Positions 13,691 through 39,924 of a stretch of 64,000 nucleotides of DNA are shown piece after piece. Made by a program: the position numbers and the translations under genes. The DNA is taken from NCBI RefSeq assembly GCF_004331955.1, contig NZ_CP036532.1, positions 558,001 to 622,000 on the forward strand. The letters run 5' to 3'. The notes beneath the pieces were generated by a model, which was given only the letters and a program-made list of their open reading frames with translations, was not told where the DNA came from and searched no databases. How positions within the stretch are numbered: position 1 is the stretch's first letter; every line of letters begins with the position of its first letter. The stretch is from Roseitalea porphyridii. Lineage in GTDB: Bacteria > Pseudomonadota > Alphaproteobacteria > Rhizobiales > Rhizobiaceae.

Positions 13691-15595
<1,905 letters not shown>

Positions 15596-15636
15596 ATCGG
15601 GTCTCCAGCGAGCGTTTGCGGCAGCCTATCGGGCGC

Positions 15637-16338: not shown

Positions 16339-16342
16339 CGCC

Positions 16343-17815: not shown

Positions 17816-17854
17816 GGTTCCGTCCGGGGTGCGGGATTTCGGCCCGAGCATAAT

Positions 17855-25432: not shown

Positions 25433-26353
25433 TCAGGCCGATTTCTTCTTCTGCGAGCCCGAAGAGCGCGACGATTTGGTGCCGCCCTTGGACGAGGACT
25501 TCGACCTTGACGACGCTTTGGACGACGAACCGGACGACCGCTTGCCGCGCGCCTTGCCCGGTTCGGCCTCGTCGAGGCTTTCCTTGAGCGCGCTCATCAG
25601 GTCGACCACATTGTCGCCGCGCGGGCGCGGTTCGGCGTCCTCGGATTCGACGCGCCTTGTCGACTTGTTCTTGAGTTTCCGGTCGATCAGCGCCCGCAGC
25701 GCTTCCTCGTAGCTGTTGGTGAAGGCCGACGCGTCGAACGGCGCGGTCTTCCGGTCGATCAGCGAGGTGGCGACGTCGAGCAGTTCGGCGTCCGGCTCGG
25801 CATCGCCGACCGACGAGAACATCGGCTCGGCCTCGCGGATTTCCTCCTCATAGTGCAGCGTCTCCATCAGCAGCCCGTCGCCGCACGGGCGGATCGCCGC
25901 CAGATATTCCTTGCCGCGCATGGTGATCTGGCAAAGGCCGGTCCTGGAACTGTCGCGCAGCGCGTCGCGCACCACGCGGTAGGCGTCCTCGGCGAGCTCG
26001 TCGGCCGGCGTGATGTAGTAGGGCTTGTTGAAGTAGATCGGCGGGATTTCGCCCTGCTCGACGAACTGGACGATCTCCATCGTCTTCTTCGTCTCCAGCT
26101 TGATCGCGTCGATCTCGTCGGGGTCGAGCAGGATGTAGCTGTCGTCGTCATATTCGAAGCCCTTGACGATCTCGTCGCGATCGACGGGCCCCATGCCGGG
26201 CACGGTCTTTTCGTAGCGGATCGGCTTGCCCGACGGCTCGTGGATCTGCCGGAAGCGGATCTTCGCCGACGATTTCGTCGCCGAATAGACCTCGACCGGG
26301 ATCGAGACGAGCGAGAGCCGCAACTGGCCCTTCCAGATCGGCCGCGCCGCCAT
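25433..26353 (-). CDS. ku: Ku homodimeric DNA end-binding protein
   Basis: A 306-residue bacterial Ku. The core (residues 1-200) begins with PIWKGQLRLSLVSIPVEVYSA and includes YVKGFEYDDDSYILL-like residues near 65-80 and MRGKEYLAAIRPCGDGLLME. The C-terminal 50 residues are a Lys/Ser-rich tail (SSKASSRSKSSSKGG), which in other Ku proteins helps DNA binding and LigD recruitment. It starts only six bases after the stop of a dehydrogenase small subunit, and its GAGG ribosome-binding site lies in that gap, so it is probably co-transcribed with the respiratory genes upstream. Confidence 0.96.
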   Translation of the reverse strand: MAARPIWKGQLRLSLVSIPVEVYSATKSSAKIRFRQIHEPSGKPIRYEKTVPGMGPVDRDEIVKGFEYDDDSYILLDPDEIDAIKLETKKTMEIVQFVEQGEIPPIYFNKPYYITPADELAEDAYRVVRDALRDSSRTGLCQITMRGKEYLAAIRPCGDGLLMETLHYEEEIREAEPMFSSVGDAEPDAELLDVATSLIDRKTAPFDASAFTNSYEEALRALIDRKLKNKSTRRVESEDAEPRPRGDNVVDLMSALKESLDEAEPGKARGKRSSGSSSKASSRSKSSSKGGTKSSRSSGSQKKKSA

Positions 26354-26359
26354 GACGCC

Positions 26360-26782
26360 TCAGGCCATTTCCGGCTTCTGCGCCCAGAAGCCTGGCAGGC
26401 CGCCGCAATAGCTCGGCACGTTGATCGTGTCCTCGACGGTCGCATACATCAGCGCGTCGGGATAGGCGATGCGCTCGCCCTCGTCTTCGCCGCGCGGCGT
26501 GTAGACGCCCGTATAGAGCGCGGTGAGCACCCGCTTGCGCAATTCGTCCGGCAGCGCATCGCGCCCGATGATCGCGCGCTTTTCCAGTTCGCTCATCCTG
26601 TCGGCCAGCGCGGCGACCAGCGGCCGGGGCAGGGGATCGAACCCGGAAAGCTCCCTGAGCCGGGCGGCGAACCGTTCGAACTCGGCAAAAGGCTGCGCGC
26701 GCGCGGCGGCGGTCGGCGCCAGCATGGCCGCGGTCGTCAGGAGCGCGAAGCGGCGCCGTGTCAGGGGTGCGATGGTGCTCAT
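26360..26782 (-). CDS. Small subunit of FAD-dependent sugar dehydrogenase, Tat-exported
   Basis: A 140-residue protein with a twin-arginine signal (TRRRFALLTTAAML) at the N-terminus. It resembles the gamma/small subunits of FAD-dependent glucose, fructose and sorbitol dehydrogenases. These travel to the periplasm through Tat, carrying the signal-less catalytic subunit with them. The adjacent GMC subunit indeed lacks a signal peptide. It overlaps the diheme cytochrome stop (ATGA), completing a three-subunit set in the order large-cytochrome-small. The two cysteine-free halves otherwise show no motif; CGGLPGFW near the C-terminus is a notable conserved-looking patch. Confidence 0.8.
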   Translation of the reverse strand: MSTIAPLTRRRFALLTTAAMLAPTAAARAQPFAEFERFAARLRELSGFDPLPRPLVAALADRMSELEKRAIIGRDALPDELRKRVLTALYTGVYTPRGEDEGERIAYPDALMYATVEDTINVPSYCGGLPGFWAQKPEMA

Positions 26783-27429
26783 GGTTCGTCCTCCTGCGAA
26801 CGCCAGGCTCCGTAATAGTCGGCGACCGCGTCGATCTCGGAAGGGGTCAGTTGCGCGGCGAACGCGCGCATCCGGCCCATCGTGTCCGACCGGCGGTCGC
26901 TATCGGCATAGGCGCGCAGTTCGTGCGCCAGATAGGCGGGATCGCGGCCGATCAGGATCGGCGCGAGGCGGCCGGTATCGTCGGCCGAAACCCCGTGGCA
27001 CGAGGCGCAGGGCGGCACGCCGCGCTCCCAGGCGCCGTTGACGACGAGCGACCAGCCGGTCGTGTCGGCCTCTTCGCGCGCGGGCGGACGAAGGTCTGGC
27101 TGCGGCGCGTCGGCATAAAGCCGTGCCATCGCCGCCGCCCCGCCCTCGCCGAGCGCGGTGGCGGTCTTTTCCATCTGGCGATGCTGCCTGAGCCCCTTGC
27201 GGTAGGCTTCGAGCTGATGGGCGATGTAGCGCGCCGGCTGGCCGGACAGGTCCGGGAACGGGCCGGGCACGGAGGGGCGCGCCGGCGTCGAGGCGGTGCT
27301 GTCATGGCAGGCCGAACAGTCGAGCAGCACATCGGCCGACTGGGCGTGTGCGGTGCCGACGGCGGAAAGGGACACCGCGGCGGCGGCAAGGGCGATCGGC
27401 GCAAAACGGGAAGGCAAGCGGCAGGTCAT
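26779..27429 (-). CDS. Diheme cytochrome c, c4-like, of the dehydrogenase complex
   Basis: Start set at the ATG overlapping the GMC gene stop, giving 216 residues with a signal peptide ending in GTAHAQ. Two heme-binding motifs are visible, CSACH at about residue 37 and CASCH near 130, so it should carry two covalent hemes. Spacing and the repeated Y-x-A-H-x-L-x-A-Y stretches resemble cytochrome c4. It would take electrons from the FAD subunit; the known glucose and fructose dehydrogenases use a triheme subunit in this place. The partner oxidase is probably the one encoded upstream in the same run. Confidence 0.85.
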   Translation of the reverse strand: MTCRLPSRFAPIALAAAAVSLSAVGTAHAQSADVLLDCSACHDSTASTPARPSVPGPFPDLSGQPARYIAHQLEAYRKGLRQHRQMEKTATALGEGGAAAMARLYADAPQPDLRPPAREEADTTGWSLVVNGAWERGVPPCASCHGVSADDTGRLAPILIGRDPAYLAHELRAYADSDRRSDTMGRMRAFAAQLTPSEIDAVADYYGAWRSQEDEP

Positions 27430-29048
27430 TGCGTCCGCGCCTCCGCGACGATGTGTGCGGCCATGCGCGTGGCGAGCGCGGCGATGGTCAGCGTCGAATT
27501 GACCGACGAGCCCGACGGGAAGGTGCTGGACGAGGAGATCCACAGGTTCGGGTGATCGTGGGTGCGACAATCGCCGTCGACGACGCTGTCGCGCGGATCA
27601 TCGCCCATGATGGTCGCGCCCATGATGTGGTTGTTGGGATAAAAGCCCTCATTGTGCCGGACGCTTTCGGGCTTGGCACCGAACAGCGGCATCATCGCCT
27701 CGACGCGGCGACGCGTGTCTTCGGCCGCCCGGCGCACATAGTCGTCGATGGCATAGTGAATTTCCGGGCGTGGTATGCCGAGCTTGTCGGTGAGTTTTTC
27801 GGTCGATGGCACGATCCGGTTGGCCGGATCGGGGAGCTGTTCGTTGAACGAATAGATGATCTGCCGGCGCGCGGCGCGATAGCGCACCGCCTCGCGCAGT
27901 TCGTCACCGGTCAGCCCTTCCTCGATGGCCTCGCTGGTGACTTCGCCGACATGGGTCTTGTTGTCGGGCATGAGCTTGCGGGCGGCATGGTCGCGGCGGA
28001 ACTCGCCGTCGCGCAGATTGACGATGCCCGAAAGGATGTTCGGTCCGCGCCCGGGCCACAGCGGCATCTCACTGTCGAACGTGTGGCCGGTGCCGGGGTG
28101 ATCCATCAGGTTGCGGCCCACCATGTCCGACGAGTTGCCCACGCCATCCGGCGCGTTCTCCTGCGTCGACATCAGCATGATCTTCGGTGTCTCTATGCCG
28201 TTGGCCGCCAGGACGAAGCGTTCGGCCTCGATGCGGAACTCCTCGCCGTCGGGCGTCAGGTAGCGGGCGGCGGCGATGCGCCCGTCCTCGCCGACCTCGA
28301 GGAAATGGACGACCGCGTTGACGATCAACTCCGCGCCGGCGGCCTCGGCCTTTTCGACCGACATGTTGCCCGAATATTGCGCCCCGATCGGACAGATCGG
28401 CATGCAGTTGGCGTTGCCGCAGCACGGCGGCCGGCCGTCATAGACCTGCTGGTTGTTGCGGCATTGCGGGGCGGGGATGAGGGTGTATCCGGCCGAGGTC
28501 AGCTTTTCCGCAAAGACCTGGTCGAGATAGGAATAGGGCGCCGGCGGCATCGGATAGGGCTTGGAGCGCGGCGCATCGAACGGCGCGTTCTCCGGACCGG
28601 CGACGCCCAGTTCGACTTCCGCTTCATAGTACCAGGGCTCGATGTCATCGTACGAGATCGGCCAGTCGCGGCCGACGCCGTAGAGCGACTTGATGCGCAT
28701 GTCGTTGGGCAGGTAGCGCCAGGTCGCCGCGCCCCAGTGCCAGGTGGTGCCGCCGACCGCGCGGATATATTGCTGCTCGTAGGGGTCAGGCCCTTTCTGG
28801 ATCAGATAGGCGCCCGGGTCGGACGGGTCAGGCTGCGGTGCGTGATCATTTTCCGGATATGGCGACATCAGGTCCTGGGGGTGGGCCTGCCGGAACCGCT
28901 TGACGAGTTCGGCGCGGTCGAGCCGCGGGCCGCAATCGAGGATCGTCACGCGCATGCCGGCCTCGGCGGCGCGCTTGGCCACCAGCCCGCCGGCGACGCC
29001 CGCGCCGATGACGCACAGTTGCGGGCTTTGCGGCAGTGTCGTGACCAT
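27426..29048 (-). CDS. GMC-family FAD dehydrogenase catalytic subunit, glucose-dehydrogenase type
   Basis: A 540-residue GMC flavoprotein. The FAD-binding turn is CVIGAGVAGGLVAK near the start. Cys209, Cys210, Cys215 and Cys219 (PPCCGNANCMPICPIGA) match the C-C-x4-C-x3-C set that binds a [3Fe-4S] cluster in the Burkholderia FAD glucose dehydrogenase. The catalytic histidine lies in FYPNNHIMG, near residue 474, and the partner Asn in SSVNSTLTI. It oxidises a sugar or polyol; which one is not readable. A GGAGGGAG ribosome-binding site sets the start at 29048. No signal peptide is seen, agreeing with export by the Tat-dependent small subunit. Confidence 0.88.
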   Translation of the reverse strand: MVTTLPQSPQLCVIGAGVAGGLVAKRAAEAGMRVTILDCGPRLDRAELVKRFRQAHPQDLMSPYPENDHAPQPDPSDPGAYLIQKGPDPYEQQYIRAVGGTTWHWGAATWRYLPNDMRIKSLYGVGRDWPISYDDIEPWYYEAEVELGVAGPENAPFDAPRSKPYPMPPAPYSYLDQVFAEKLTSAGYTLIPAPQCRNNQQVYDGRPPCCGNANCMPICPIGAQYSGNMSVEKAEAAGAELIVNAVVHFLEVGEDGRIAAARYLTPDGEEFRIEAERFVLAANGIETPKIMLMSTQENAPDGVGNSSDMVGRNLMDHPGTGHTFDSEMPLWPGRGPNILSGIVNLRDGEFRRDHAARKLMPDNKTHVGEVTSEAIEEGLTGDELREAVRYRAARRQIIYSFNEQLPDPANRIVPSTEKLTDKLGIPRPEIHYAIDDYVRRAAEDTRRRVEAMMPLFGAKPESVRHNEGFYPNNHIMGATIMGDDPRDSVVDGDCRTHDHPNLWISSSSTFPSGSSVNSTLTIAALATRMAAHIVAEARTQ

Positions 29049-29212
29049 CTGATAACTCCCTCCGGCTCCGGTCAAACGCGCGTCGTTCCGTCCGGTTCCC
29101 GGTTCGTCGCCCCATACGCGCGTGCTGGAACCGAATCCGGCCGGTGAAGTTGACGCGGCGCGGTCGTCACGGTCATGGTTGGCGTAAACGAGACGATTGC
29201 CGGCGACGCCCT

Positions 29213-29974
29213 TCACCCGGCGCGGTTGGGGGCGGGGCGGCCATCGCCGTCCTCGGCCTGCACCAGAACCCGTACGATCAGAAGGCCGATCGCGGCGACG
29301 AACACAGCCGCGCCGAACACCCACATCATCCCGCCGGCGAGCGCCTGATCGGTCAGCGCCGTCAGCCCGTAGGGCGGTGTGGTCGCCTCGTGCCACAGGT
29401 GCCAGGGCTCGCCGGAAAAGACCAGCAACGCCGACAGCACCGACATCTGCGTGCCGACCACGATGGCCGACAGGAAGCTCTGGAGCGGCCGAGGTTCCAT
29501 CTGCGTGATGATGGCGGCCCAGTACGCCACCGCCGCGCCGAGAAGGCTCAGATGCATGGCCCAGTAGGTCCAGTCGCTCTCCAGCGTCGCCTGGTACGGC
29601 GTCGGCAGATGCCAGAACCAGAAAAAGCCCGAAAAGACGATCGCGGCCGCCATCGGCGACACGCGGCGGCCGTTGAAGGCGCGGGCAAGCAGCGGCGCGG
29701 CGATCAGCGTCAGCACCAGGTGCTGGCCGACGCGGGCGGAGAACAGCGCCATGGACAGGGCGCAAAGCGGCGAGACGAACATGATCGCGGTGATCGCCAG
29801 CCCGGCGAAGTAGCTCGTGCGGCGCGGGCCCTTGGCCAGGCGCCAGAACCCGAATGCCCATGCGGCGGCGAGGCCGGCCAGCAGGAACGGGTCCAGCGTC
29901 CAGCGCGCCATCAGTTCGGCCGGCACCGGTGGCATGCCGCAGAAGGGAACATAGTCGGGATCGGCGGTGAACAT
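29213..29974 (-). CDS. Caa3-type CtaG-like cytochrome oxidase assembly protein
   Basis: A 253-residue integral membrane protein with about seven helices, resembling the caa3_CtaG family rather than the Cox11-type CtaG. Recognisable pieces are a GMPPVPAELMARWTLDPFLL N-terminus, HLVLTLIAAPLLARAF, and FFWFWHLPTPYQ with SLLGAAVAYWAA. Family members help oxidase maturation, probably copper insertion or structural assembly. It begins two bases after the previous gene's stop and ends the oxidase block; a gap of 164 bases precedes the second dehydrogenase unit. Confidence 0.78.
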   Translation of the reverse strand: MFTADPDYVPFCGMPPVPAELMARWTLDPFLLAGLAAAWAFGFWRLAKGPRRTSYFAGLAITAIMFVSPLCALSMALFSARVGQHLVLTLIAAPLLARAFNGRRVSPMAAAIVFSGFFWFWHLPTPYQATLESDWTYWAMHLSLLGAAVAYWAAIITQMEPRPLQSFLSAIVVGTQMSVLSALLVFSGEPWHLWHEATTPPYGLTALTDQALAGGMMWVFGAAVFVAAIGLLIVRVLVQAEDGDGRPAPNRAG

Positions 29975-29975
29975 G

Positions 29976-30293
29976 TCAGCCTCCGCAGTTGGCAAAGAAG
30001 GGAAAGGCGACCGCATTGAGCACGATGGCGATCACCGCGATGACCGCCGCCAGCCGGATCGCGGTCGCCATGTCGTCGTTCTTGCGGCGCACGGGCACGC
30101 GCACGATCGGCAGGCCCGCGCCGATCAGCGCGATGATCGTGGCGATGAAGCTGAGCGTCTGCATCGTCGCTATCGACATCAGCGCGCGCGGCGAGCAGGC
30201 CGCCGAGACCAGCGCGTAGAGGATGGTGAAATGGATCGCCCACAGCGTGATCGGCGCTGCGAGCGCCAGAACCTGGTTGCGACGTATCGTCAT
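29976..30293 (-). CDS. Small hydrophobic membrane protein of the oxidase operon
   Basis: A predicted 105-residue protein with three membrane helices (WAIHFTILYALVSAA, IATIIALIGAGLPIV, LAAVIAVIAIVLNAVAFPFF). The start ATG overlaps the oxidase subunit I stop (ATGA), indicating coupling. I do not recognise a named family; it may be an accessory or subunit IV-like component of the oxidase, to judge only by its position. Confidence 0.6.
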   Translation of the reverse strand: MTIRRNQVLALAAPITLWAIHFTILYALVSAACSPRALMSIATMQTLSFIATIIALIGAGLPIVRVPVRRKNDDMATAIRLAAVIAVIAIVLNAVAFPFFANCGG

Positions 30294-32806
30294 GGGATCA
30301 CTCCATGGGCGGCCAGCAGCAGCCCGCCGGTGATGACGGCGAACAGCGCGACGCCCTTCGCATAGGGTGAGAGGTTGAAGTCGGCGACGTGCTGGCCGGG
30401 CCGGGTCTGCCCGGTCAGCTTGCGCAGCGCGTTGAACAGCGCCCACCAGACCAGCACGAACACGAGCACGCCGACATAGGCGACGATCGCCCAGGCGGTC
30501 GCGCCGAGCGCGGTCGCCTCGCGGTCGATGTGCGCGATGGCGAGATAGAGAAGCCCGCCCATTGCGCCGCCGAGCGCGGCCGTGACGAGGCCGGACAGCG
30601 CGGCCGGGATGAGGCTGTCGCGCAGCGTCAGGGCCCGGGTCAGCGTGGCAAAGCCGACCATGAAGATCGCCGCGACGATCGCGCCTGCGGCCATCAGCGG
30701 GTCGGGCCGCGCCACTTGGTCGGCGAAGGCCGGGAACGTCAGCCACAGATAAAGAAGGCCAAACACCAGCGAGAAGTAGAGCGCGCCCAGGATCAAGAGC
30801 GTGCCGATCACGGCGATATAGGTGTGGCTGCGCCGGTCCGCCTTGTCGACCGGAAGCCGGTAGCCGAGCCCGGCGTCACGCGTCACGCCGCTGTCGGACG
30901 GCTCCCACGCCCAGGCGGTGAAGCCGGCCATCATGGCGACGAAGCCGGCCGCCGTGACCCAGTAGGCGCTGGCGAGCGTCGCGCCGAACATCACAGCGAC
31001 CGCAAAGGCGGTGAAGAGCGGCACCCATGTCGGGTGTGGCAGGCGGGCGATGTGCAGCGGTTCGCCGGTCAGCGGATCGCAGCCGAGCGTCTCGCGGCGA
31101 TGGTCCGGATAGGCGCGCAGGACACCGTTCACGCGGGCCGGATCGGTGCCGGTCAGCTCGGGCTGGTCCCACAGCGGCTCGCGGCTGGTCACCGGCGGGA
31201 TCGCGCGGAAATTGTAGCCCGGCGCGACGGTCGGATAGAGCCATTCCATCGTGCCGGCACCCCACGGGTTGCGGCCGGCCGGCGCGCCACGCGACAGGTG
31301 GCGGAAGAAGTCGAAGATGAACAGCGCCACGCCGGCGGCGAGAATGTACGAGCCGATCGAGGACAGCATGTTCAGCCGGTCCCAGCCGATGTCCTCGGGA
31401 TAGGTGGCGATGCGGCGTGGCATGCCGCGCAGGCCTGTGACGTGCATCAGGAAGAAGGTGGCGTTGAAGCCGATGAACATCAGCCAGAACACCCATTTGC
31501 CGAGCGCCTCCGACATCATCCGCCCGGTGAAGTGCGGCACCCAGTAGTAGAACGCGCCGAACAGTGGGAACACCATGCCGCCGATCAGCACATAGTGCAG
31601 GTGCGCGACGACGAAATAGCTGTCATGGGCCTGGAAATTGAACGGCACCGAGGCGAGCATGACCCCGGTCAGCCCGCCCAGCACGAAGATGAACAGGAAG
31701 CCGAAGATGAACAGCATCGGCGTGGTGATACGCGGGCGCGCCTGGGCCAGCGTCGCGATGAAACAGAAGATCTGTATCCCGGTCGGGATCGCCACCATGG
31801 TCGATGCGGCCGAAAACAGCGACAGCGATATCGCCGGAATGCCGGTCGTGAACATGTGGTGGGCCCAAAGGCCGAAGCTGATGAAGCCCATGGTGACGAC
31901 GGCCGCGACCGTGAAGCCGTAGCCGAACAGCGGCCGGCCGACGAAGGTCGGCAGCATGGTCGCGACCATGCCGGCGGCGGGCAGGAAGATGATGTAGACT
32001 TCCGGGTGTCCGAAGATCCAGAACAGGTGCTGCCACAGGAGCGGATCGCCGCCGGCGGCCGGATCGAAGAAGGGCAGGCCGAGCAGGCGCTGGCTTTCGA
32101 GCAGGATCGAACCGATGATCAGCGGCGGAAAGCCGATCGCGATCATGAAGGCGGTGATCAGCAGATACCAGGCGAAGATCGGCATCCTCGTCAGGCTCAT
32201 GCCCGGCGCGCGGGCGCACAGGATCGCCGCGATCAGCTCGACCGCCGCGGTCACCGAGGCGATCTCGGCGAACGTGATGCCGATCAGCCAGAAGTCGGCC
32301 GAAAGGCCGGGCGTGTATTCCTTGGTCGAAAGCGGGGTGTACATGAACCAGCCGCCGGCCGGCGCCGCATCGAACAGGAACGACGACAGCACGATGATGC
32401 CGCCGAACAGGTAGCAGAAATAGCCGAATGCCCCCAGACGCGGGAAGATCAGGTCGCGTGCGCCCAGCATCAGCGGCAGGAAGTAGACGCCGAACCCCTC
32501 AAGAATCGGAATCGCGAACAGGAACATCATCAGTGTTCCGTGCATCGTGAAGAACTGGTTGTAGGTCTCGCTGTCCAGGAACGTGTTGCCCGGCACGATG
32601 AGCTGGGTGCGCACGCCGAGCGCCAGAAGCCCGGCGATCAGGAAGAAGATGAAGCCGGTGACGATGAACCGCTTGCCGACGACGCGGTGCGAGACCGAGG
32701 TCAGCGCGCGGATGCCGGAGGGCTGCGCCCAGATCTCCTCGAAGTTCTTGTCCGGCTCGCCCTTGCGCGCGCCGGTATAGTCCTGGCGTTCGGCGCTGGC
32801 GCTCAT
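30290..32806 (-). CDS. ctaD: Cytochrome c oxidase subunit I fused to a subunit III-like domain
   Basis: An 838-residue heme-copper oxidase catalytic subunit. The metal ligands are complete: His89 (MHGTLMMF) and His404 for heme a, His402 for heme a3 and His267, His316 and His317 for CuB, with cross-link Tyr271 and Glu269 in GHPEVY. That makes it an A1-type core. Residues beyond about 560 form an extra domain with roughly seven helices, in the position of subunit III. Two features are odd: PTGIQIF has Gln345 where the K-channel lysine is expected, and ARDLIFPRLGAF keeps the D-channel Asp118 but has Gly125-Ala126 where asparagines are usual. The start overlaps the coxB stop. Confidence 0.92.
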   Translation of the reverse strand: MSASAERQDYTGARKGEPDKNFEEIWAQPSGIRALTSVSHRVVGKRFIVTGFIFFLIAGLLALGVRTQLIVPGNTFLDSETYNQFFTMHGTLMMFLFAIPILEGFGVYFLPLMLGARDLIFPRLGAFGYFCYLFGGIIVLSSFLFDAAPAGGWFMYTPLSTKEYTPGLSADFWLIGITFAEIASVTAAVELIAAILCARAPGMSLTRMPIFAWYLLITAFMIAIGFPPLIIGSILLESQRLLGLPFFDPAAGGDPLLWQHLFWIFGHPEVYIIFLPAAGMVATMLPTFVGRPLFGYGFTVAAVVTMGFISFGLWAHHMFTTGIPAISLSLFSAASTMVAIPTGIQIFCFIATLAQARPRITTPMLFIFGFLFIFVLGGLTGVMLASVPFNFQAHDSYFVVAHLHYVLIGGMVFPLFGAFYYWVPHFTGRMMSEALGKWVFWLMFIGFNATFFLMHVTGLRGMPRRIATYPEDIGWDRLNMLSSIGSYILAAGVALFIFDFFRHLSRGAPAGRNPWGAGTMEWLYPTVAPGYNFRAIPPVTSREPLWDQPELTGTDPARVNGVLRAYPDHRRETLGCDPLTGEPLHIARLPHPTWVPLFTAFAVAVMFGATLASAYWVTAAGFVAMMAGFTAWAWEPSDSGVTRDAGLGYRLPVDKADRRSHTYIAVIGTLLILGALYFSLVFGLLYLWLTFPAFADQVARPDPLMAAGAIVAAIFMVGFATLTRALTLRDSLIPAALSGLVTAALGGAMGGLLYLAIAHIDREATALGATAWAIVAYVGVLVFVLVWWALFNALRKLTGQTRPGQHVADFNLSPYAKGVALFAVITGGLLLAAHGVIP

Positions 32807-33732
32807 TTCAGGCTCTCCAGCCAGGCGGCCAGCGCGCGCAGATCGGGCCCGCTCAGATGGTTGTAGTCGGGCATCTGTGCGCCGGGCTTCATGTCGGAGA
32901 CATCGGCGATCCAGCCGGCGAGATTGCCCTTGTTCATGCGCCACATGCCGGCCCCGAGCGCGGCCCGTCCGCCGACGCGGGTCAGGTCCGGACCGATCCT
33001 GGCGCCCTCGGCGACGCCCCTGATCTGGTGGCAGGCCGCGCAGCCGGCATCGAGGAAGACCTGCTTGCCGTCGAGCAGTTCCGGCCTTGCCGCGTCACGC
33101 GCCTCGCCTTCGAGGCGATCGAGGAAGGCGGCAAAGTCCTCCGGCGGCACGGCGACCACCTCGAACGCCATCTTGGGGTGCGACAGGCCGCAGAACTCGG
33201 CGCACTGGCCACGGAACCGGCCGGCCTCGGACGCGGTCAGCGTGAAGCTGTTCGTGCGGCCGGGGATCATGTCGAGCTTGCCGCCGAGCGAGGGCACCCA
33301 GAACGAGTGGATGACGTCGGCGGTCTTCAGGCGGAAGGTGACGGGCTCGCCGACCGGAACGACGATCTCGTTGGCGTCGCGGATCGCCCGACCGTCCGGA
33401 TCGTAGATCACGTCCCACCAATATTGATGGCCGGTCACCTCGATCACCGTGGCGTCTGGATCGGTGCGTGCGATCGCGCGCAGCGTGATCGACGAGAACA
33501 CGAACAGGGCCAGGATCGTCACCAGCGGAAAGACGAGCCCGCCGCCCCAGATCCACCAGGTGCGCGGCTGGCCGCCGCGCCGCGCCGCCAGCCAGACGAA
33601 CGCCATGACCAGCGCGAAGATGGCAAGCCCGACCGCCGTCATGATGACGGTCAGCAGCAGCGCCGCCTCGGCGTTGGGACCGAAGACACGCAGTGCCGAC
33701 TGCGCGCCGAATTCGCCCAGTTCGGAGGTCAT
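32803..33732 (-). CDS. ctaC: Cytochrome c oxidase subunit II with fused heme c domain
   Basis: A 309-residue subunit with two N-terminal membrane helices (residues 22-49 and 58-82), then a periplasmic cupredoxin domain. CuA ligands are His142, Cys177, Cys181, His185 and Met188 (CAEFCGLSHPKM). A cytochrome c domain follows, with the heme site CAACH at 231-235. Such fused subunits accept electrons directly from soluble cytochromes. The gene overlaps both the preceding cytochrome c gene and the following subunit I gene by four bases. Confidence 0.95.
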   Translation of the reverse strand: MTSELGEFGAQSALRVFGPNAEAALLLTVIMTAVGLAIFALVMAFVWLAARRGGQPRTWWIWGGGLVFPLVTILALFVFSSITLRAIARTDPDATVIEVTGHQYWWDVIYDPDGRAIRDANEIVVPVGEPVTFRLKTADVIHSFWVPSLGGKLDMIPGRTNSFTLTASEAGRFRGQCAEFCGLSHPKMAFEVVAVPPEDFAAFLDRLEGEARDAARPELLDGKQVFLDAGCAACHQIRGVAEGARIGPDLTRVGGRAALGAGMWRMNKGNLAGWIADVSDMKPGAQMPDYNHLSGPDLRALAAWLESLK

Positions 33733-34268
33733 CGGGCGTCACCGAGCGTATAGAGATAGGCCGCCATGTCGCGCGCCTCGTCCTCGGTCAGGCCCAGATC
33801 GGGCATCGCGGTATCGGGCGCGTGGACGGTCGGCTGCACCAGCCAGCTCGTCAGGTCGCCGGGGCGGTTCGGCAGGATGCCGGCGACATAGGCGCGCTCG
33901 GCGAAATCGGTCAGGTTGGGTCCGACGCTGCCTCGGGCGTTGGCCACACCCGGTATGGTGTGGCAGGACCCGCACCCGTTCTCGGCGATCAGTTGCCGGC
34001 CGCGCGCGGGGTCTGCGCCGGGGATGTCGAGGCTCTGCGCCTCCCAGTTCAGCGGCTGTCTGGGCGCGACCGGCCAGTATCGCGCGATGAGCGGAACGAT
34101 ATCGTCGCGCCATGCGGCGTAGACCGGCGCCAGCGGACCGTCGTCGGGATCGGCGAGCGCCCAGATGCCCACGAGCACGGCCACGGCGATGCCGGCCAGC
34201 GCCGTCAACGCCGTGATCGCTGTCGCCCGCCGGCTGCGGTGCGGCCTGTCCTCCACCGCCACGGCCAA
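33729..34268 (-). CDS. Membrane-anchored monoheme cytochrome c
   Basis: A 179-residue protein with one N-terminal membrane helix (ITALTALAGIAVAVLVGIWAL) and a periplasmic c-type domain with the heme motif CGSCH near residue 98. A likely axial methionine lies in DTAMPDLGLTEDEARDMAAYL near the C-terminus. Anchored next to the oxidase, it probably passes electrons from the dehydrogenases to subunit II. It overlaps ctaC by four bases and begins three bases after the diheme cytochrome. Confidence 0.88.
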   Translation of the reverse strand: MAVAVEDRPHRSRRATAITALTALAGIAVAVLVGIWALADPDDGPLAPVYAAWRDDIVPLIARYWPVAPRQPLNWEAQSLDIPGADPARGRQLIAENGCGSCHTIPGVANARGSVGPNLTDFAERAYVAGILPNRPGDLTSWLVQPTVHAPDTAMPDLGLTEDEARDMAAYLYTLGDAR

Positions 34269-34271
34269 GAC

Positions 34272-35072
34272 CTACTCCGCGATCACGATGTCGGGGCGAT
34301 CGTCCTGGACGCGCTCGGCGCGCACGCGGGCGTAATACTCGCTGACCGCGCGCATGTCCTCGCGGGTCATCTTCTGGGCGATGGCCGACATCACGTTGAG
34401 CGGATCGTTGTCGCGGATGCCCTCTTTCCAGAGCTGGAGCTGATACTCCATGTAGCGGGCGTACTGGCCGGCCAGATACGGAACCGACGGCGCAAGGCCG
34501 GTGCCGTTCGGCCCGTGGCAGTTGACGCAGGCCGGAATGCCGGCCTCGGCCGAACCGGCCGCGCCCAGTTGCGCGCCCCATTGCAGCAGTTCGCCGTCGA
34601 TCTGGCCAAGCACCGGCGCGTGCGGCGCTTCGAGCACGGAATAATAGGCGCTGACCGCCTCCATCTCGTATTCGGTCAGGCGCTGGGCGATGCCGGTCAT
34701 GACGCGGTTCGGGCGGTCGCCGGATGCGTAGTCGACAAGCTGCTTGTACATGTACCAGGCCGGTTGGCCCGTCAGGCGCGGAAAGGCGCCGGAGCCGTCG
34801 CCTTCCCCTTGCGCCCCGTGGCAGGTGATGCAGGCCATCCCCGAGCCGCCGTTCTCGGCGCCGCCCATGGCGACCAGCTGCCCTGCCTCCAGAAGATCAT
34901 CGTCGACGGGCTGGTTGACGCGGGCGTTGAACATCGTTTCGTCCGATTGAAGGCTCGCCTCCAGCGTCGCCGCACCGGGCGCTTCCTCGAAGTTCTGCGC
35001 GCTGGCGACCATGGTCAGCCCGATGGCGGCGGCGGCCGTGGTTGCGATCAGTGTCTGGACAAGCGTCCTCAT
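34272..35072 (-). CDS. Diheme cytochrome c4-like protein
   Basis: A 266-residue exported protein with a signal peptide ending near VASAQN. It has two c-type heme sites, CITCH (about residue 94) and CVNCH (about residue 183), each followed by a repeat of the same pattern (LTGQPAWYMYKQLVDYASG and LAGQYARYMEYQLQLWKEG), the two-domain architecture of cytochrome c4. It lies between the first dehydrogenase and the oxidase genes, so it is the natural electron carrier of this module. Confidence 0.9.
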   Translation of the reverse strand: MRTLVQTLIATTAAAAIGLTMVASAQNFEEAPGAATLEASLQSDETMFNARVNQPVDDDLLEAGQLVAMGGAENGGSGMACITCHGAQGEGDGSGAFPRLTGQPAWYMYKQLVDYASGDRPNRVMTGIAQRLTEYEMEAVSAYYSVLEAPHAPVLGQIDGELLQWGAQLGAAGSAEAGIPACVNCHGPNGTGLAPSVPYLAGQYARYMEYQLQLWKEGIRDNDPLNVMSAIAQKMTREDMRAVSEYYARVRAERVQDDRPDIVIAE

Positions 35073-35082
35073 GGCGAACTCC

Positions 35083-36870
35083 TTACGCGTCCATCAGCGG
35101 GCGCGGGTTTTCGAGATAGTCGGTCTTCATGTAATGCAGCGTCCAGTAGGCCAGCCCCATCAGCGGGCCGGTCGGGTTGTAGCCGAGGTTCTGCGGGAAC
35201 AGGCAGGCGCCGAAGACGAAGACGTTGTGGTGGTCCCACATCTGGCCGTAGCGGTTGACGACGCTGGTCGCCGGATCGGTGCCGATCACCGCCCCGCCCG
35301 TGTTGTGCGTGGTCTGGTAGGGCACGATCGAATAGGACTGGCCGGGCGCGGCGCGGTTCCAGTCCGCGATGGTTTCGACATGCCCCATCGCTTCGGCGAT
35401 CTCGCGCGCTCTGGCCTGACCCCACTGGGCCATCCGCCGGTCGTTCTCGGGGAAGTCGAAGGTCATCCGCAACAGCGGCCGGCCGAACGCGTCGACATAG
35501 GTCGGATCGAGGTCGAGATAGTTGTTGGGCGAGGCGACGGACGAGCCGTGCAGCAGCACCCCGCCGCTGCGGGAATAGTATTCGCGCACCGCCCGTTTCC
35601 ACTCGGCGCCGTAGGCGGGCGTGTCCGGCGGTGTCGGCTGGTGGCCGATCGGCCGGCCGTTGGTCTGCGTCGAACCGATATAGCCGCCGCCCACGAAGCC
35701 CAGTTCGGCCGCGTCGTAATTGCCGGTGTTGAACTCGTCGATCGCCATGCCGAGCGCGCCGGCGCCCATGAACGGGTTGGTGATGATCTCCTCGTCGAAC
35801 AGCACGTTCGCACCGGCCAGCGTCTGGTAGGCGTAGTTGCGGCCGACCGTTCCGGTGCGGCTTTGCGGGTCGTACGGCGTGCCAAGGCCCGAAACGAGCA
35901 TCAGGTGCACGTTCCACAGCCCGTAGGCGTTCATGCAGACGATGTCGGCGGGCTGGAAGACCTCGCGGCCGTCCTCGTCCAGATAGGTCACGCCGGTCGC
36001 CGTCTTGCCGTCGGACGATTTATCGACCCGCATGACCCAGGAATTGAACCGGATCTCGAAGTTCTCGTGATCCCTGATGCGGTCGTAGATGCAGATGATC
36101 GGGTCGGCCTTGGCATAGTAGCCGCAGCCGAAGCGCTCGCAGAACCCGCAATAGGTGCACGGGTGAAGCTGCGCGCCATAGGGGTTCTCGTAGGCGCGGG
36201 TCATGTTGGCCGACGGGATCGGGAACGGCTTGTAGCCCAGTTCGGCCGCGCCTTCCGCAAAGAGGGTGGTTGCGACCGGCTGCTTCATCGCCGGGTTCGG
36301 ATAGTCCTCCGAGCGCGGCCCCTCGAACGGGTTGCCGCCGTCGCGGATCTCGCCGTTCAGATTGCCGGCATTGCCGCCGATGCCAGCGACCTTCTCGTAG
36401 AAGTCGAGGAACGGTTCGAGTTCGTCATAGCTGACGCCCCAGTCCTGCACGGTCATGTCGTCATCGTCGAGAAACTGCTCGCCGTAGCGCTCGACATAGT
36501 GGCTGCGCATTTCGAGGTCGGCCGGCAGCGGCCGCCAGCTTTGCCCGTTCCAGTGGATGCCGGCACCGCCAAGTCCCTGGCCGGGCAGGAACGAGCCGAG
36601 CCGCCGCATCGGCAGCGCGGTCTGGTCGGAATTGTTGCGGAAGGTGAGCGTCTGTTCCCTGACGTCCATCATGTGCCCGTACTGGTGGGCGTATTTGAGG
36701 TCGTCATGCTCTTCGGGACCGGCGAAGCTGGTTGCGTCATGGCGCGGCTTGCCGCGTTCGAGGACCACACAGCGCTGGCCGGCCTGGGCCAGTTCGTAGG
36801 CGGCGGCAAGGCCGGTCCAGCCGCTGCCGATGATCACCACGTCGGTCTTTGGCAGTGTGCGCGCGGCCAT
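35083..36870 (-). CDS. GMC-family oxidoreductase, catalytic subunit of the first dehydrogenase module
   Basis: A 595-residue flavoprotein with the FAD turn VVIIGSGWTGLAAAYELA and ERGKPRH. The catalytic His lies in YQTTHNTGGAVIG near residue 525 and the Asn in GYNPTGPLMG. The cysteine cluster differs from that of the second GMC protein: Cys238, Cys241, Cys244 and Cys249 in CTYCGFCERFGCG. The substrate is likely a sugar acid, polyol or alcohol; the small subunit is of the gluconate 2-dehydrogenase type. No signal peptide is visible, so Tat export with the small subunit is expected. It follows that gene with no gap. Confidence 0.85.
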   Translation of the reverse strand: MAARTLPKTDVVIIGSGWTGLAAAYELAQAGQRCVVLERGKPRHDATSFAGPEEHDDLKYAHQYGHMMDVREQTLTFRNNSDQTALPMRRLGSFLPGQGLGGAGIHWNGQSWRPLPADLEMRSHYVERYGEQFLDDDDMTVQDWGVSYDELEPFLDFYEKVAGIGGNAGNLNGEIRDGGNPFEGPRSEDYPNPAMKQPVATTLFAEGAAELGYKPFPIPSANMTRAYENPYGAQLHPCTYCGFCERFGCGYYAKADPIICIYDRIRDHENFEIRFNSWVMRVDKSSDGKTATGVTYLDEDGREVFQPADIVCMNAYGLWNVHLMLVSGLGTPYDPQSRTGTVGRNYAYQTLAGANVLFDEEIITNPFMGAGALGMAIDEFNTGNYDAAELGFVGGGYIGSTQTNGRPIGHQPTPPDTPAYGAEWKRAVREYYSRSGGVLLHGSSVASPNNYLDLDPTYVDAFGRPLLRMTFDFPENDRRMAQWGQARAREIAEAMGHVETIADWNRAAPGQSYSIVPYQTTHNTGGAVIGTDPATSVVNRYGQMWDHHNVFVFGACLFPQNLGYNPTGPLMGLAYWTLHYMKTDYLENPRPLMDA

Positions 36871-37575
36871 TCAGCCCTCCCTTCCGTTCGTGCGCAGGAA
36901 TTGCGCCGGCCCCTGGCCGGGAACGTGCGCGATGCCCTTGGGCGGCATGTCGAAGGGCCGGTTGTGGTCGTCGACGAAGCTCGTGTAGTAGGCGTGCGCC
37001 CCCGGGAACCCGACCATTTCCCAGCCGGCATAGTCCTTGTTGCCGCCATAGATCGGGTCGGCGAAATAGCCCCAGTTCGCCAGCTTCAGCAGTTCCTCGT
37101 AGAACGCGGACTGGAACACGTCCTCGGACTGCGACAGCGAGCCGACGAAGGCGCGCCGCCCTTCCGCGTCGCGATCGACCAGCTTGAGCCCGCCGTCGGC
37201 CTGATCGGTCTCGGCGATGCCCCGGCGGATCAGCGCGGCCGGCACATGTTCGGCCTGATAGCCCTGGGTCGGTTCGCCCTCGCGGAACGGGCCTTCCATG
37301 TAGAGCCCAGCGCCCCGGCCGTAGGGGCCGGCCAGTTGCAGGTCGATGAAGTCGACGACGCCGGCCTGGCTGGCCGACGGAAATTCGTCCTCGGGAATGA
37401 AGATGTCGGTGACGGCGGCGAGATAGCGCGCCTCGTCGTCGGTCAGGAAGAACCAGGGCCGGCCTTCCAGTTCGGCATAGGCGTTCTGGGCGATGGCGCG
37501 GACCGGAAGTGCGGCGCTGACGCCGGCCGCGCCGATATGGGCGAGGATTGCCCGGCGTGAAAACTGCGTGACCAT
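36871..37575 (-). CDS. Gluconate 2-dehydrogenase subunit 3 family protein, Tat-exported
   Basis: Start set at the ATG at 37575, giving 234 residues with a twin-arginine signal (FSRRAILAHIGAAGV). The body matches the gluconate_2-dh3 family: FLTDDEARYLAAVTDIFIPED and GVVDFIDLQLAGPYGRGAG. In known complexes this subunit carries the flavin subunit through the Tat pathway and anchors it to the membrane. It is the first gene of the dehydrogenase-oxidase run; the promoter is probably in the 72 bases between it and trkA. Confidence 0.85.
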   Translation of the reverse strand: MVTQFSRRAILAHIGAAGVSAALPVRAIAQNAYAELEGRPWFFLTDDEARYLAAVTDIFIPEDEFPSASQAGVVDFIDLQLAGPYGRGAGLYMEGPFREGEPTQGYQAEHVPAALIRRGIAETDQADGGLKLVDRDAEGRRAFVGSLSQSEDVFQSAFYEELLKLANWGYFADPIYGGNKDYAGWEMVGFPGAHAYYTSFVDDHNRPFDMPPKGIAHVPGQGPAQFLRTNGREG

Positions 37576-37647
37576 GGATCCCCCGCGACGGTTCGTAGGT
37601 AAGTGTGCGACCAACGCGCGTTCGCCGGCCCGGTTCCATGCAAGGGG

Positions 37648-38307
37648 CTATTCGTCCGTGTCCGGCGCGAGCGCCTTTTCGAGCGCGTCGACCGCCTCGG
37701 TCGCCACCGCGACGATCAGATGGTCGCCCTCCGCGAGCCGGGTCTCGTCGTCGACCAGGCTCTCCTCCTCGCCGTGCGCGCGGGCGATCACGCGGCTCGC
37801 CGCGGGCAGGTCCAGTTCGCCGACGGTCTGGCCGTCATGGGCGGCGGTGATCGCGTAGCCGACCACGCGTATGCCCTTGTGAAGACGAAGGTCCACCGAG
37901 GTGTCGGACTTGTCCTTGAGCGCCTGCACGATCGAGCGGGCCACCGTCGAATGCGGGGTGATGACGTCGTTCAGTTCCAGCTCGTCGCACACCGAAAGGA
38001 GTTCGGCCCTGACGATCTGCGGTATCACCCGTTCGAAGCCGATCGACCGGCCGACCAGCGCTGCGAGGATGTTGACGTCGTCCTCGTTGGTCAGCAGCAC
38101 GAGCGAGTCGGCGTGATCGCCGAACGCGTCGCGCAGCACCGACGGCAGCGTGCCGTCGCCATGGATGAAGCCGCAGTCGAGCTGGTCGGCGAGCTGTTCG
38201 AGCTTGGCCTCGTCGGTGTCGACGATGACGACCTCGTGGCCGTCATCGGTCAGTTCCCGCGCCGTCGCGATGCCGAACCGCGAGGCGCCCACGATTACCG
38301 TGCGCAT
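37648..38307 (-). CDS. trkA: TrkA/KtrA-type potassium channel regulatory protein
   Basis: A 219-residue cytoplasmic protein with an RCK_N Rossmann domain (VIVGASRFGIATARELTDDG, residues 3-22, and acidic residue in VDTDEAKLEQL) followed by an RCK_C domain (from about 140). The nucleotide-binding turn reads GASRFG rather than the usual GxGxxG. With the membrane partner four bases upstream it forms a Trk/Ktr potassium uptake system. Length suits a single-RCK KtrA rather than the doubled E. coli TrkA. Confidence 0.85.
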   Translation of the reverse strand: MRTVIVGASRFGIATARELTDDGHEVVIVDTDEAKLEQLADQLDCGFIHGDGTLPSVLRDAFGDHADSLVLLTNEDDVNILAALVGRSIGFERVIPQIVRAELLSVCDELELNDVITPHSTVARSIVQALKDKSDTSVDLRLHKGIRVVGYAITAAHDGQTVGELDLPAASRVIARAHGEEESLVDDETRLAEGDHLIVAVATEAVDALEKALAPDTDE

Positions 38308-38310
38308 GGT

Positions 38311-39759
38311 CTATGCCCTCCTTTTCCAGGTGGCGGGGAGAATGACGGCGAGCAGGGCGAGAAATTCGAGACGGCCCGCCAGCATCGCCACGATCAGATA
38401 GGCCTTCAGGTGGGCCGGCAGGTCCGGCCCGACGACGCCGGTGCTGAGCCCGACGGTCGACAGCGCCGAGACGATGTCGAACACCGACGCAAGCGGGGCC
38501 AGCCCCGCGGTCAGGAACAGCAGCCAGCCGATCAGGCCGGTCAGCGTGTAGAGCGCAAGGATCGCCGCGATGGAGATGACCCGGTCGGCGGCGACCGTCT
38601 TGCCGTTCGACTCGAGCCGCGTCACCGAGCGGCGCGGCGAACGCAGCCGCAACAGGCTCAGTCCGACCATGCCGCCCAGCGTCATCACGCGGTCGAGCTT
38701 GATGCCGCCGGCGGTCGAGCCGATGCCGCCGCCGACGACCATCGCAAACAGGATCAGCGCGACGAGCGCGTCGGCCTGGGCGATCGGGGCGACGGCGAAG
38801 CCGGCGGTGGTGAAGCCGCTGAGGAAGTTGAGTGCCGTGTCGAGCACGCCCTCGGTTTCCCAGCCGTTCAGCGCCGCCGCCGCAAGCGCGACAAGGGCCG
38901 TGCCGGTGCCGAGCGCGACAAGGACCGCGCCTGCATTGCTGCTTGAGAGCGCGCGCCGCACGCCGGACTGGCGGGCGACGACATAGGCGTAGAGCGAGAC
39001 CGTCGTGGCGACGCACACGGCCATGACCGCCGACTGCGCCAGCGGCGAATAGCTCGCAAGGCTGTCGGCGCGCGGCGTGAAGCCGCCCGTCGATGCGGCG
39101 CTCAGCGCGACGACGACGCCCTCCCACCAGCTTGGCAGCAGCGCGGCGAGAATGGCGATGGCGATCAGCGTGATCACGCAATAGGCCGCCAGCAACTGGC
39201 GCGCCTGGGCGCGGGTCGAGGCGACGAGGTCGCGACCGTTGATGCCCACTTCGCCCATTTCGTGCGAGGCGGCGCCGGGACCGAGGATCAGCGCGACGCC
39301 GGCGACCGCGATCGCGAAACCGCCGGTCCATTGCAGCCAGGCCCTCAGGAAATGGCCGGCGATCGGCCAGTCCATGGTCGCTTCGGCCACCGTCAGACCC
39401 GTGGAGGTGACGCCCGACACGCTCTCGAACAGCGCATCGAGCGGCGTCATGCCGAGGGCGAGAAAACCGGGCGCGGCGAACACGCTGACGATGAGGAAAA
39501 GCGCGACGAAGGCGGCGACCGCCTCGATCTGGCGGACATTGTCCAAGCGCGGGCGATAGTGCGCCACGAGCGCACCGGCCAGACACAGGACGACGGCCGG
39601 CACGAGCGCCAGCGCGAGGTCGGTCGCGCCCTCGAGGGCTGCGACCAGAAGCGGCGGGCCGACGGCGGCGAGCATGATCAGCGAATGGGCCGCCACCGTG
39701 CGCGCGACCACGCCCGGCCGCGCCGTCCAGGCGACACTGGCCTGTCCCCGTGCCGTCAC
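38311..39759 (-). CDS. trkH: TrkH/KtrB-type potassium transporter membrane subunit
   Basis: A predicted 482-residue protein starting at a GTG at 39759; a later ATG would remove the first membrane helix. All four pore loops of the family are visible with their filter glycines: SVSGVTSTGLTV, SAASTGGFTP, FLSGFTTAGFAV and IVSALSTVGLST. It pairs with the regulatory subunit immediately downstream. The gene is divergent from the exported PRC-barrel protein. K+ (or Na+/K+) uptake is the expected activity. Confidence 0.88.
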   Translation of the reverse strand: MTARGQASVAWTARPGVVARTVAAHSLIMLAAVGPPLLVAALEGATDLALALVPAVVLCLAGALVAHYRPRLDNVRQIEAVAAFVALFLIVSVFAAPGFLALGMTPLDALFESVSGVTSTGLTVAEATMDWPIAGHFLRAWLQWTGGFAIAVAGVALILGPGAASHEMGEVGINGRDLVASTRAQARQLLAAYCVITLIAIAILAALLPSWWEGVVVALSAASTGGFTPRADSLASYSPLAQSAVMAVCVATTVSLYAYVVARQSGVRRALSSSNAGAVLVALGTGTALVALAAAALNGWETEGVLDTALNFLSGFTTAGFAVAPIAQADALVALILFAMVVGGGIGSTAGGIKLDRVMTLGGMVGLSLLRLRSPRRSVTRLESNGKTVAADRVISIAAILALYTLTGLIGWLLFLTAGLAPLASVFDIVSALSTVGLSTGVVGPDLPAHLKAYLIVAMLAGRLEFLALLAVILPATWKRRA

Positions 39760-39924
39760 GATGCCTGCCGAACCAATCTCTCGCCCCTGATGCGGTTGAA
39801 ACCCCCTCGATAACGAACGGCGCGGCGCCCGGTTCCGTGCCGGGGCGCCATGCAACTTCGGTCGGTCTTGTCCGTTCTGGCTGCAGCGACATCCGAATTG
39901 GACACCGAGAAGGAGGACCCACAC

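Follow-up and report, generated by a model that had tools for sequence, protein, structure and literature searches.

A putative private respiratory chain linking a GMC-family dehydrogenase to a caa3-type oxidase in Roseitalea porphyridii and other Alphaproteobacteria

Triheme-type glucose, fructose and 2-ketogluconate dehydrogenases pass electrons to quinone. In the flavin adenine dinucleotide (FAD)-dependent glucose dehydrogenase of Burkholderia, and in fructose and 2-ketogluconate/gluconate dehydrogenases, a GMC-family subunit with a Cys-rich (Fe-S) segment works with a cytochrome c subunit, and a small subunit with a twin-arginine translocation (Tat) signal exports it by hitch-hiking; the glucose, fructose and 2-ketogluconate enzymes carry a three-heme subunit (PMC9727119; this and the other articles are cited here from excerpts of their text). 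On the oxidase side, COX operon type a of Alphaproteobacteria, with its COX1-COX3 fusions, has been described, and pyrroloquinoline quinone (PQQ) dehydrogenases were described with type a-II (Degli Esposti 2014, 2019; PMC4013037, PMC6431628). A-type oxidases have also been connected to starvation, as for the caa3 oxidase of Pseudomonas aeruginosa, which starving cells express and which benefits their fitness (PMC5436846), and a starvation-induced oxidase of Shewanella (PMC4728554). For the alphaproteobacterial stress response, the conventional EcfG promoter is GGAAC-N16-CGTT (PMC7083833); the motif is enriched within 100 bp of the start, and Ku and PRC-barrel genes are among the top EcfG-dependent genes in S. 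melonis (PMC6599016). Here we analyzed a gene cluster of Roseitalea porphyridii that brings such parts together. It lies at 26360-37575 of a 64,000 bp stretch (the window, whose positions are used throughout) of a genome consisting of a single contig of 3.54 Mb.

We propose, with a probability of about 0.68, that the genes at 36871-29213 form a private periplasmic respiratory chain that bypasses quinone, is induced by stress and has a companion dehydrogenase. The parts are known; what is new is their packaging, and the evidence points to rewiring and to the exchange of a partner. The first eight genes were named S1, GMC1, DH1, MONO, CtaC, CtaD, MEM and CtaG, and the last three GMC2, DH2 and S2. 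In order of transcription, the features are:

37613..37637, minus strand: EcfG-type motif GGAAC-N16-CGTT before S1; motif end 37 bp from the S1 ATG
36871..37575, minus strand: S1, small subunit with a Tat-type N-terminus (SRRAIL); PF13618 Gluconate_2-dh3, expect value (E) 5.4e-22
35083..36870, minus strand: GMC1, GMC-family FAD dehydrogenase; PF05199; match to the fructose dehydrogenase large subunit, E 7e-25
34272..35072, minus strand: DH1, diheme c4-type cytochrome c with two CXXCH; match to cytochrome c4 6q2u, E 4e-29
33729..34268, minus strand: MONO, N-terminally anchored monoheme cytochrome c with one CXXCH and an N-terminal transmembrane (TM)-like stretch; TTG start likely
32803..33732, minus strand: CtaC, oxidase subunit II with a CuA motif and a fused C-terminal heme c (caa3-type; one CXXCH); PF00116 and cytochrome c
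30290..32806, minus strand: CtaD, oxidase subunit I of probable COX1-COX3 fusion type, 838 aa, with a long C-terminal membrane extension; PF00115
29976..30293, minus strand: MEM, small membrane protein of 105 aa with three TM-like stretches; no Pfam match, conserved in the module
29213..29974, minus strand: CtaG, Caa3_CtaG assembly factor; PF09678, E 1.6e-29
29075..29099, minus strand: EcfG-type motif GGAAC-N16-CGTT before GMC2; motif end 26 bp from the ATG; begins a separate unit
27426..29048, minus strand: GMC2, second GMC dehydrogenase (FAD-glucose dehydrogenase/fructose dehydrogenase type); PF05199/PF00732; match to 6a2u, E 3e-181
26779..27429, minus strand: DH2, diheme cytochrome c with two CXXCH
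26360..26782, minus strand: S2, small subunit with a Tat-type N-terminus; PF12318 FAD-SLDH

In the proposed mechanism, S1 would take GMC1 through the Tat pathway, and GMC1 would oxidize a sugar-like or polyol-like alcohol in the periplasm. Electrons would move from the substrate to the FAD of GMC1, its predicted Fe-S site, DH1, MONO and the heme c of CtaC, and then through CuA and heme a to the heme a3-CuB site of CtaD and oxygen, a path that would bypass quinone and the bc1 complex. Assembly or stability of the oxidase would be the task of CtaG and perhaps of MEM. An EcfG-type promoter would drive the block within the general stress response, and GMC2-DH2-S2, separately promoted in the same stress island, would probably feed the same cytochromes. 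Gene content, conservation, promoter motif, the replacement of a triheme by a diheme cytochrome, and oxidase exchange are visible in the DNA, whereas we infer the class of substrate, the route of the electrons, co-transcription, induction by stress and a physiological role in the maintenance respiration of cells under stress or starvation.

A preliminary description of the locus had listed these eleven minus-strand genes in the order S1-GMC1-DH1-MONO-CtaC-CtaD-MEM-CtaG-GMC2-DH2-S2; order and coordinates were confirmed, and Pfam and family scans fit each name except that of MEM. Its remark on tight spacing also stands: from S1 to S2, the junctions are 0, 10, 3, -4, -4, -4, 1, 164, -4 and -4 bp, with nine of ten at 10 bp or less. 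It had further described a single co-directional run, and the eleven genes are indeed co-directional, but the run goes past 26360 into Ku and LigD. Since it continues into these DNA-repair genes, tight spacing and co-direction are weak functional evidence alone, and co-direction was set aside as evidence of function. Chance does not explain the arrangement of the first eight genes, since they recur in this order across genera.

To follow this recurrence, we compared loci and genomes, labeled here with L and G numbers. In a class sample of 385 genomes, GMC1 matches with E of 1.2e-161 or lower occur in 15; 20 loci were compared, from 14 of those 15 genomes (leaving out the window's own) and six weaker matches, and the oxidase lies beside GMC1 in one (G015). 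In an order sample of 101 genomes with seven compared loci, one had the module (G473) and two more a separate oxidase cluster within the locus. Both G015 and G473 have S1, GMC1, DH1, MONO, CtaC and CtaD successively on a single strand. A named scan found at least 588 relatives of GMC1, and among the best 80 loci of these, ten carry S1-GMC1-DH1-MONO-CtaC-CtaD in order on one strand (L124-L130, L132, L133 and L135). They belong to Roseitalea, Maritimibacter, Hoeflea halophila, Puniceibacterium, Sulfitobacter maritimus, Marivita, three Microvirga and Bauldia; a contig edge cuts L131 after MONO. Roseitalea sp. MMSF_3546, which carries GMC1, is of the same genus as the window. The ten best GMC1 matches among plasmid records were three from D. 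shibae and seven from Sulfitobacter. Two of them were examined, and the D. shibae plasmid pDSHI02 has all eight genes from S1 to CtaG, under the locus tags DSHI_RS19645-19610. Plasmids CP070278.1 ("Dysgonomonadaceae bacterium zrk40", 246,192 bp) and NZ_CP066788.1 (Martelella lutilitoris, 246,197 bp) showed equal GMC1 identity and score, and the organism label on CP070278.1 looks doubtful.

For the first dehydrogenase, family scans and structure-sequence matches identify both GMC1 and GMC2 as GMC catalytic subunits with the FAD fold. The four cysteines of GMC1 (C238, C241, C244 and C249) are invariant in 15/15 aligned rows and align with the Cys segment of fructose dehydrogenase with a different spacing; the Fe-S cluster is a prediction only. 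Twin-Arg N-termini were read by eye on S1 and S2, and a search by eye for a signal sequence on GMC1 and GMC2 saw none. From its family, we infer that GMC1 acts on a sugar or polyol. Matches of the GMC proteins to pyranose oxidase, cholesterol oxidase and mycofactocin families, and of DH1 and DH2 to PdsA, fell far below curated cut-offs and were not used.

The cytochrome that follows GMC1 differs between packaged and unpackaged enzymes. It is diheme in 15/15 module loci, and DH1 matches cytochrome c4 across both of its domains. In 85 unpackaged relatives, a script counted triheme cytochromes in at least 63, diheme in four, monoheme in eight and none in ten. Only loci with at least 1.5 kb downstream were counted, and the script misses frames opening before GMC1, which makes 63 a lower bound; L152 and L175, scored as none, do have a DH1-like match. 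These counts bear on the possibility that the dehydrogenases are ordinary quinone reducers with an unrelated oxidase. The three-heme subunit of the characterized glucose, fructose and 2-ketogluconate enzymes speaks for it, but neither DH1 nor DH2 is triheme, a diheme c4-type protein stands in for that subunit in all 15 module loci counted, and the sole hydrophobic stretch of either window protein is N-terminal and signal-like. We consider this explanation very improbable.

The nearest unpackaged clade (L149, L152, L170, L175, L182 and L196) has a DH1-like cytochrome, with two CXXCH in five of six matches and one in L152, where the match starts inside the first motif. The compared stretches of these loci contain no type-a oxidase, and L196 has an ordinary CtaD. 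Because this clade has the DH1-like cytochrome without a type-a oxidase, the sequences suggest a change of cytochrome before the arrival of the oxidase; its sister grouping with the module GMC1s has modest support (90/76).

Two further observations concern GMC1-S1 pairs elsewhere. On the Thermus thermophilus plasmid pTthSNM7-6b (L221), such a pair, 53% identical to GMC1, has a transposase gene downstream; in view of the distant phylum, this is a possible case of horizontal transfer. Unpackaged triheme pairs lie within 10 kb of a COX1-3-branch oxidase in L117, L118, L138, L161 and L165, an arrangement that is possibly an earlier stage or the result of shared regulation.

At the phylogenetic level, the dehydrogenase and the oxidase have different histories. 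The module label was fixed from gene order before the trees were made, and rows were picked by similarity to the window GMC1 or CtaD. GMC1 rows, used also for the cytochrome counts, needed a score above 400 bits and more than 480 matched residues (104 rows including the window, near relatives kept); CtaD rows needed more than 450 bits and 480 residues (45 passed, 15 of them module rows). With all 104 rows, the 17 module rows fall on one side of a GMC1 branch with a Shimodaira-Hasegawa-like approximate likelihood ratio (SH-aLRT) of 99; with 49 rows (17 module and 32 of 87 others), the module clade has a support of 100/98. For CtaD, a single clade of the 15 module rows was rejected by the approximately unbiased (AU) test (p-AU 2.6e-28), and four changes are needed. 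Nine CtaD rows (window, L034, L124-L129 and L219) do form a clade; despite it, inheritance of the oxidase lineage with the dehydrogenase was rejected. The Sulfitobacter sp. SK025 oxidase groups with L110 and L160, those of Microvirga and Bauldia are in another group, and G473 is apart. The trees thus point to a different oxidase of the same kind being recruited with the pairing kept, as in SK025.

Since the GMC1 lineage keeps a COX1-3-branch oxidase alongside through these exchanges, a functional coupling in a private chain can be argued. The alternative is that the dehydrogenase delivers its electrons to the cytochrome c pool at large, and that the caa3 oxidase has a general auxiliary role and is fed by bc1, both being co-located through stress regulation only. 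This would fit the two other cytochrome c oxidases of the genome, the sister clade (where DH1 must have another acceptor, as no type-a oxidase is in the compared stretch), and the DH1-like matches near type-a CtaD in 11 of 24 loci that lack the GMC1-S1 pair (L091-L114, chosen by CtaD). With the oxidase kept adjacent despite its exchanged lineage, and with genes that abut or overlap, we regard it as unlikely and retain the private chain.

Regarding the oxidase itself, CtaC matches subunit II of Thermus caa3 (2yev_B) at E 8e-57, and CtaD has 18 TM-like stretches over its 838 aa with no Pfam COX3 match in the C-terminal part. CuA and a fused heme c in CtaC, together with Caa3_CtaG in the cluster, agree with the type-a/COX1-3 branch. 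Elsewhere the genome encodes an ordinary aa3 oxidase (COX1 adjoining a COX2 with a TM domain) and a cbb3-type COX1-FixO pair, which makes the oxidase of the window the third one and auxiliary. MEM homologues occur in the module of six named genera, and MEM may be a COX4-like subunit.

In the CtaD motif PTGIQIF, Q aligns over the K of 6hwh CtaD, which we take to be the K-channel lysine. Among 48 distinct subunit I sequences that a motif search identified in the compared loci L034-L220, 45 have glutamine at this position; lysine is kept in three, the ordinary aa3 of the same genome (L204) and the ordinary CtaD of L185 and L196. A word search for the K channel turned up no discussion of it in either PMC6431628 or PMC4013037. 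An oxidase branch without this lysine would test how far A-type oxidases need the residue. It also bears on a further alternative, in which the module mainly removes oxygen or disposes of electrons in stressed cells (protective respiration) instead of conserving energy. With the lysine missing, pumping cannot be assumed, and the stress-type neighbors and promoter motifs would suit such a role. Yet CtaD retains GHPEVYI with its conserved Glu and the heme/copper ligand histidines, and protective respiration as the main function seems doubtful to us.

Concerning regulation, the strict EcfG-type motif was GGAAC-N16-CGTT, with a spacer of 16 or 17 in the counts and the reversed motif as control. 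Both gaps of the cluster, 29049-29212 and 37576-37647, hold one GGAAC-N16-CGTT site each. The window has six strict sites against a mean of 0.87 in 100 shuffles (0/100 reach 6), and all six lie ahead of a gene and point toward it: a Gfo/Idh gene (21966), GMC2, S1, TrkH, a sodium:solute symporter (SSS; 41048) and a short-chain dehydrogenase/reductase (SDR). Since the site and the start called for the SDR (43798) overlap, a later start is likely. Among ten close modules, seven have a strict site before S1 (window, L124, L126, L128, L129, L219 and L220), and the three Microvirga modules have it before an extra first DH1 gene. Overall, a strict site precedes the first module gene in 10/17 module loci.

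Counting module genes as well, 13 of the 193 gene starts called in 11 named module loci had a site within 150 bp upstream, versus 6/995 in 68 non-module loci; the reversed motif gave 0 in both sets with the same simple gene caller. With a second script, the motif was within 250 bp of S1 in 4/14 module loci and 10/89 others (reversed control 0), and because of these ten, some unpackaged dehydrogenases may be stress-regulated too. The sites could be chance occurrences in GC-rich DNA, with the block expressed from an unseen housekeeping promoter. Genome-wide, there are 66 strict sites versus 36 of the reversed pattern, so many of them are chance, and the motif is missing in 7/17 module loci. However, the shuffles, the enrichment at gene starts and the position kept before S1 and before close GMC2 homologues, where it is found in 4/4, argue otherwise, and a search for sigma-70-like promoters found none. 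An origin by chance appears highly unlikely, and we maintain the stress-type promoter. Terminator-like sites (8 vs 4.9 expected) were not informative.

The wider genome contains the corresponding regulators. Fourteen of the 66 sites lie in C1:811727-833512, an island with both NepR genes (C1:832351 and C1:827064) and an extracytoplasmic function (ECF) sigma gene, which has a PhyR_sigma2 match (L223:9728-10279) beside nepR. NepR was found in 14/14 genomes searched, 12 of them over the cut-off. The island (L222, L223) also has a ferritin-like (Dps-type) gene and an HWE histidine kinase.

Unlike the eight-gene block, the second dehydrogenase has no fixed place. GMC2 retains the CC-x4-C-x3-C segment of glucose dehydrogenase and is close to the solved three-subunit enzymes (E 3e-181), from which GMC1 is distant (E 7e-25). 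Of the 14 module genomes, seven, including the window's, have a GMC2 homologue with E of 1e-90 or below, and none was found at this level in the other seven; contigs were assigned to each other by identical length. It is on the module's contig in five: the window, Roseitalea, Maritimibacter, Marivita and Microvirga arabica. In the Roseitalea relative, the set is 6.6 kb downstream of the module on the same strand, with an AcrB-type gene (other strand) and a DUF892 gene between them. It is 12.5 kb upstream on the other strand in Maritimibacter and 22.8 kb upstream on the other strand in Marivita; in M. arabica, the homologue (55% identity) lies 12.9 kb upstream on the same strand. Microvirga arvi and Hoeflea halophila have it on a contig other than the module's. 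No separate GMC2 or S2 match was seen in the best 80 named loci, where the flanks of full-length loci reach only about 4 kb past CtaG and about 9 kb before S1.

Three close GMC2 homologues (74-76% identity; L224, L250 and L251) keep the order GMC2-DH2-S2 and the diheme DH2, and have a strict site 25-29 bp before GMC2 (26 bp in the window); thus, all four homologues of at least 74% identity, counting the window, carry it. Microvirga relatives show the order cytochrome-S2-GMC2 with no strict site in the compared stretch, and in Hoeflea an EcfG-type site precedes an S2-like gene. A two-dehydrogenase operon as a conserved unit was rejected, given the varied positions and orientations of the set in four relatives. 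The sequences point instead to GMC2-DH2-S2 as a recurrent companion with its own EcfG-type site, outside the block and adjacent here only locally.

These comparisons split the central claims of the preliminary description. Its two dehydrogenases and oxidase in one run are real in the window, but this arrangement is not conserved (6.6-22.8 kb apart in four relatives). The gene-order comparison that it proposed shows the eight-gene block recurring and the GMC2 set placed variably. A dedicated module is upheld for the first eight genes, by conserved order, diheme for triheme and pairing kept despite oxidase exchange, and not for the arrangement of GMC2-DH2-S2 with the oxidase. It had also held that separate promoters with unlinked expression would speak against its view: by motif, one site serves dehydrogenase 1 and the oxidase and another dehydrogenase 2, and as both sites are of the same stress type, the expression of both units may still be linked. 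The description was incomplete in that it left out this stress-response setting, with the motif in either gap, and the continuation into Ku and LigD.

Several observations weigh against the reading that we favor. Aquabacter (L134) keeps CtaC with no CtaD found beside it, Sulfitobacter sp. SK025 shows no match to MONO, while genes for DedA and an APC permease separate its DH1 from CtaC (coxB), and GMC1 was found in only 2/5 genomes of the genus. The strict motif is missing before the first gene in L125, L127, L034, L115, L134, L135 and L131; L131 has only 75 bp upstream, L127 and L034 carry one-base variants, and L125 has none. In R. sphaeroides, PhyR is described without a major general stress role (PMC5830050). 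Because DH1-like matches lie near CtaD in 11 of 24 loci without GMC1-S1, DH1 may be a partner of the oxidase branch as much as of the dehydrogenase. Finally, the missing K-channel lysine raises doubt on the proton uptake of this oxidase.

Around the cluster, the stress-type context consists of the following features:

25433..26353, minus strand: Ku (non-homologous end joining, NHEJ), outside the respiratory module; 6 bp after S2, co-directional
22907..25429, minus strand: LigD (NHEJ); 3 bp after Ku
37648..39759, minus strand: TrkH-TrkA, potassium uptake; 72 bp upstream of S1, TrkH start uncertain
39812-39836: EcfG-type site before TrkH

Neighbors recur in varied combinations, including the SSS symporter, MscS, SDR, TrkH-TrkA, MgtC, PRC-barrel, DUF892, Ku-LigD and a trehalose-phosphate-synthase-type gene (PF00982). 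Within the genus, GMC1 and Ku co-occur in the same 2/5 genomes, with Ku on another contig in the sister species. In Maritimibacter (L125), Ku-LigD is near the module too. A run of genes at 13691-17851 is assigned by Pfam to glucose-6-phosphate dehydrogenase, 6-phosphogluconolactonase-type and 6-phosphogluconate dehydratase-type enzymes, a putative Entner-Doudoroff entry set near the dehydrogenases.

A wider scenario, which we see as evenly poised, is that the general stress response of Alphaproteobacteria includes a private two-input chain that bypasses quinone. The first input would derive from a sugar dehydrogenase linked to quinone: its triheme cytochrome would have given way to a diheme c4-type protein, as in the sister clade, a COX1-3-branch oxidase without the K-channel lysine would then have been captured and later exchanged within its branch, and GMC2-DH2-S2, likewise diheme, would be a second input that travels separately, in chromosomal and plasmid islands with osmotic and DNA-repair genes. 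If the proposed chain is real, it shows the rewiring of a quinone-dependent periplasmic dehydrogenase into a self-contained, oxidase-linked chain and gives the general stress response of Alphaproteobacteria a respiratory component. With its plasmid copy, D. shibae DFL 12 is a marine bacterium in culture that allows a direct test.

Compared with known systems, the gene set is not described in the titles and abstract openings listed from the open-licence PMC literature (subscription journals mostly outside, preprints outside). With the EcfG/PhyR-NepR regulon, the locus shares the GGAAC-N16-CGTT promoter and the Ku and PRC-barrel genes, and differs in that the words oxidase, cytochrome and GMC are absent from the main text of both regulon papers (PMC7083833, PMC6599016). 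The P. aeruginosa and Shewanella oxidases are likewise auxiliary A-type enzymes that appear under starvation, but they belong to Gammaproteobacteria with other regulators, and the excerpts do not mention an operon dehydrogenase. Thermus caa3 (2yev) has the same subunit II with a fused heme c, and subunits I and III in one chain (per the name of 2yev_A). It keeps the K-channel lysine, whereas here this is a glutamine and the oxidase goes with a dehydrogenase. COX operon type a has the same CtaC, long CtaD and Caa3_CtaG (PMC4013037, PMC6431628); a word search for GMC or gluconate in the two texts gave 0, and here a GMC dehydrogenase set with DH1 and MONO precedes the oxidase. The three-subunit FAD dehydrogenases offer the same GMC subunit with its Cys-rich segment, Tat hitch-hiker and cytochrome c, but in this locus the cytochrome is a diheme c4-type protein instead of a triheme one, and an oxidase follows in the same run.

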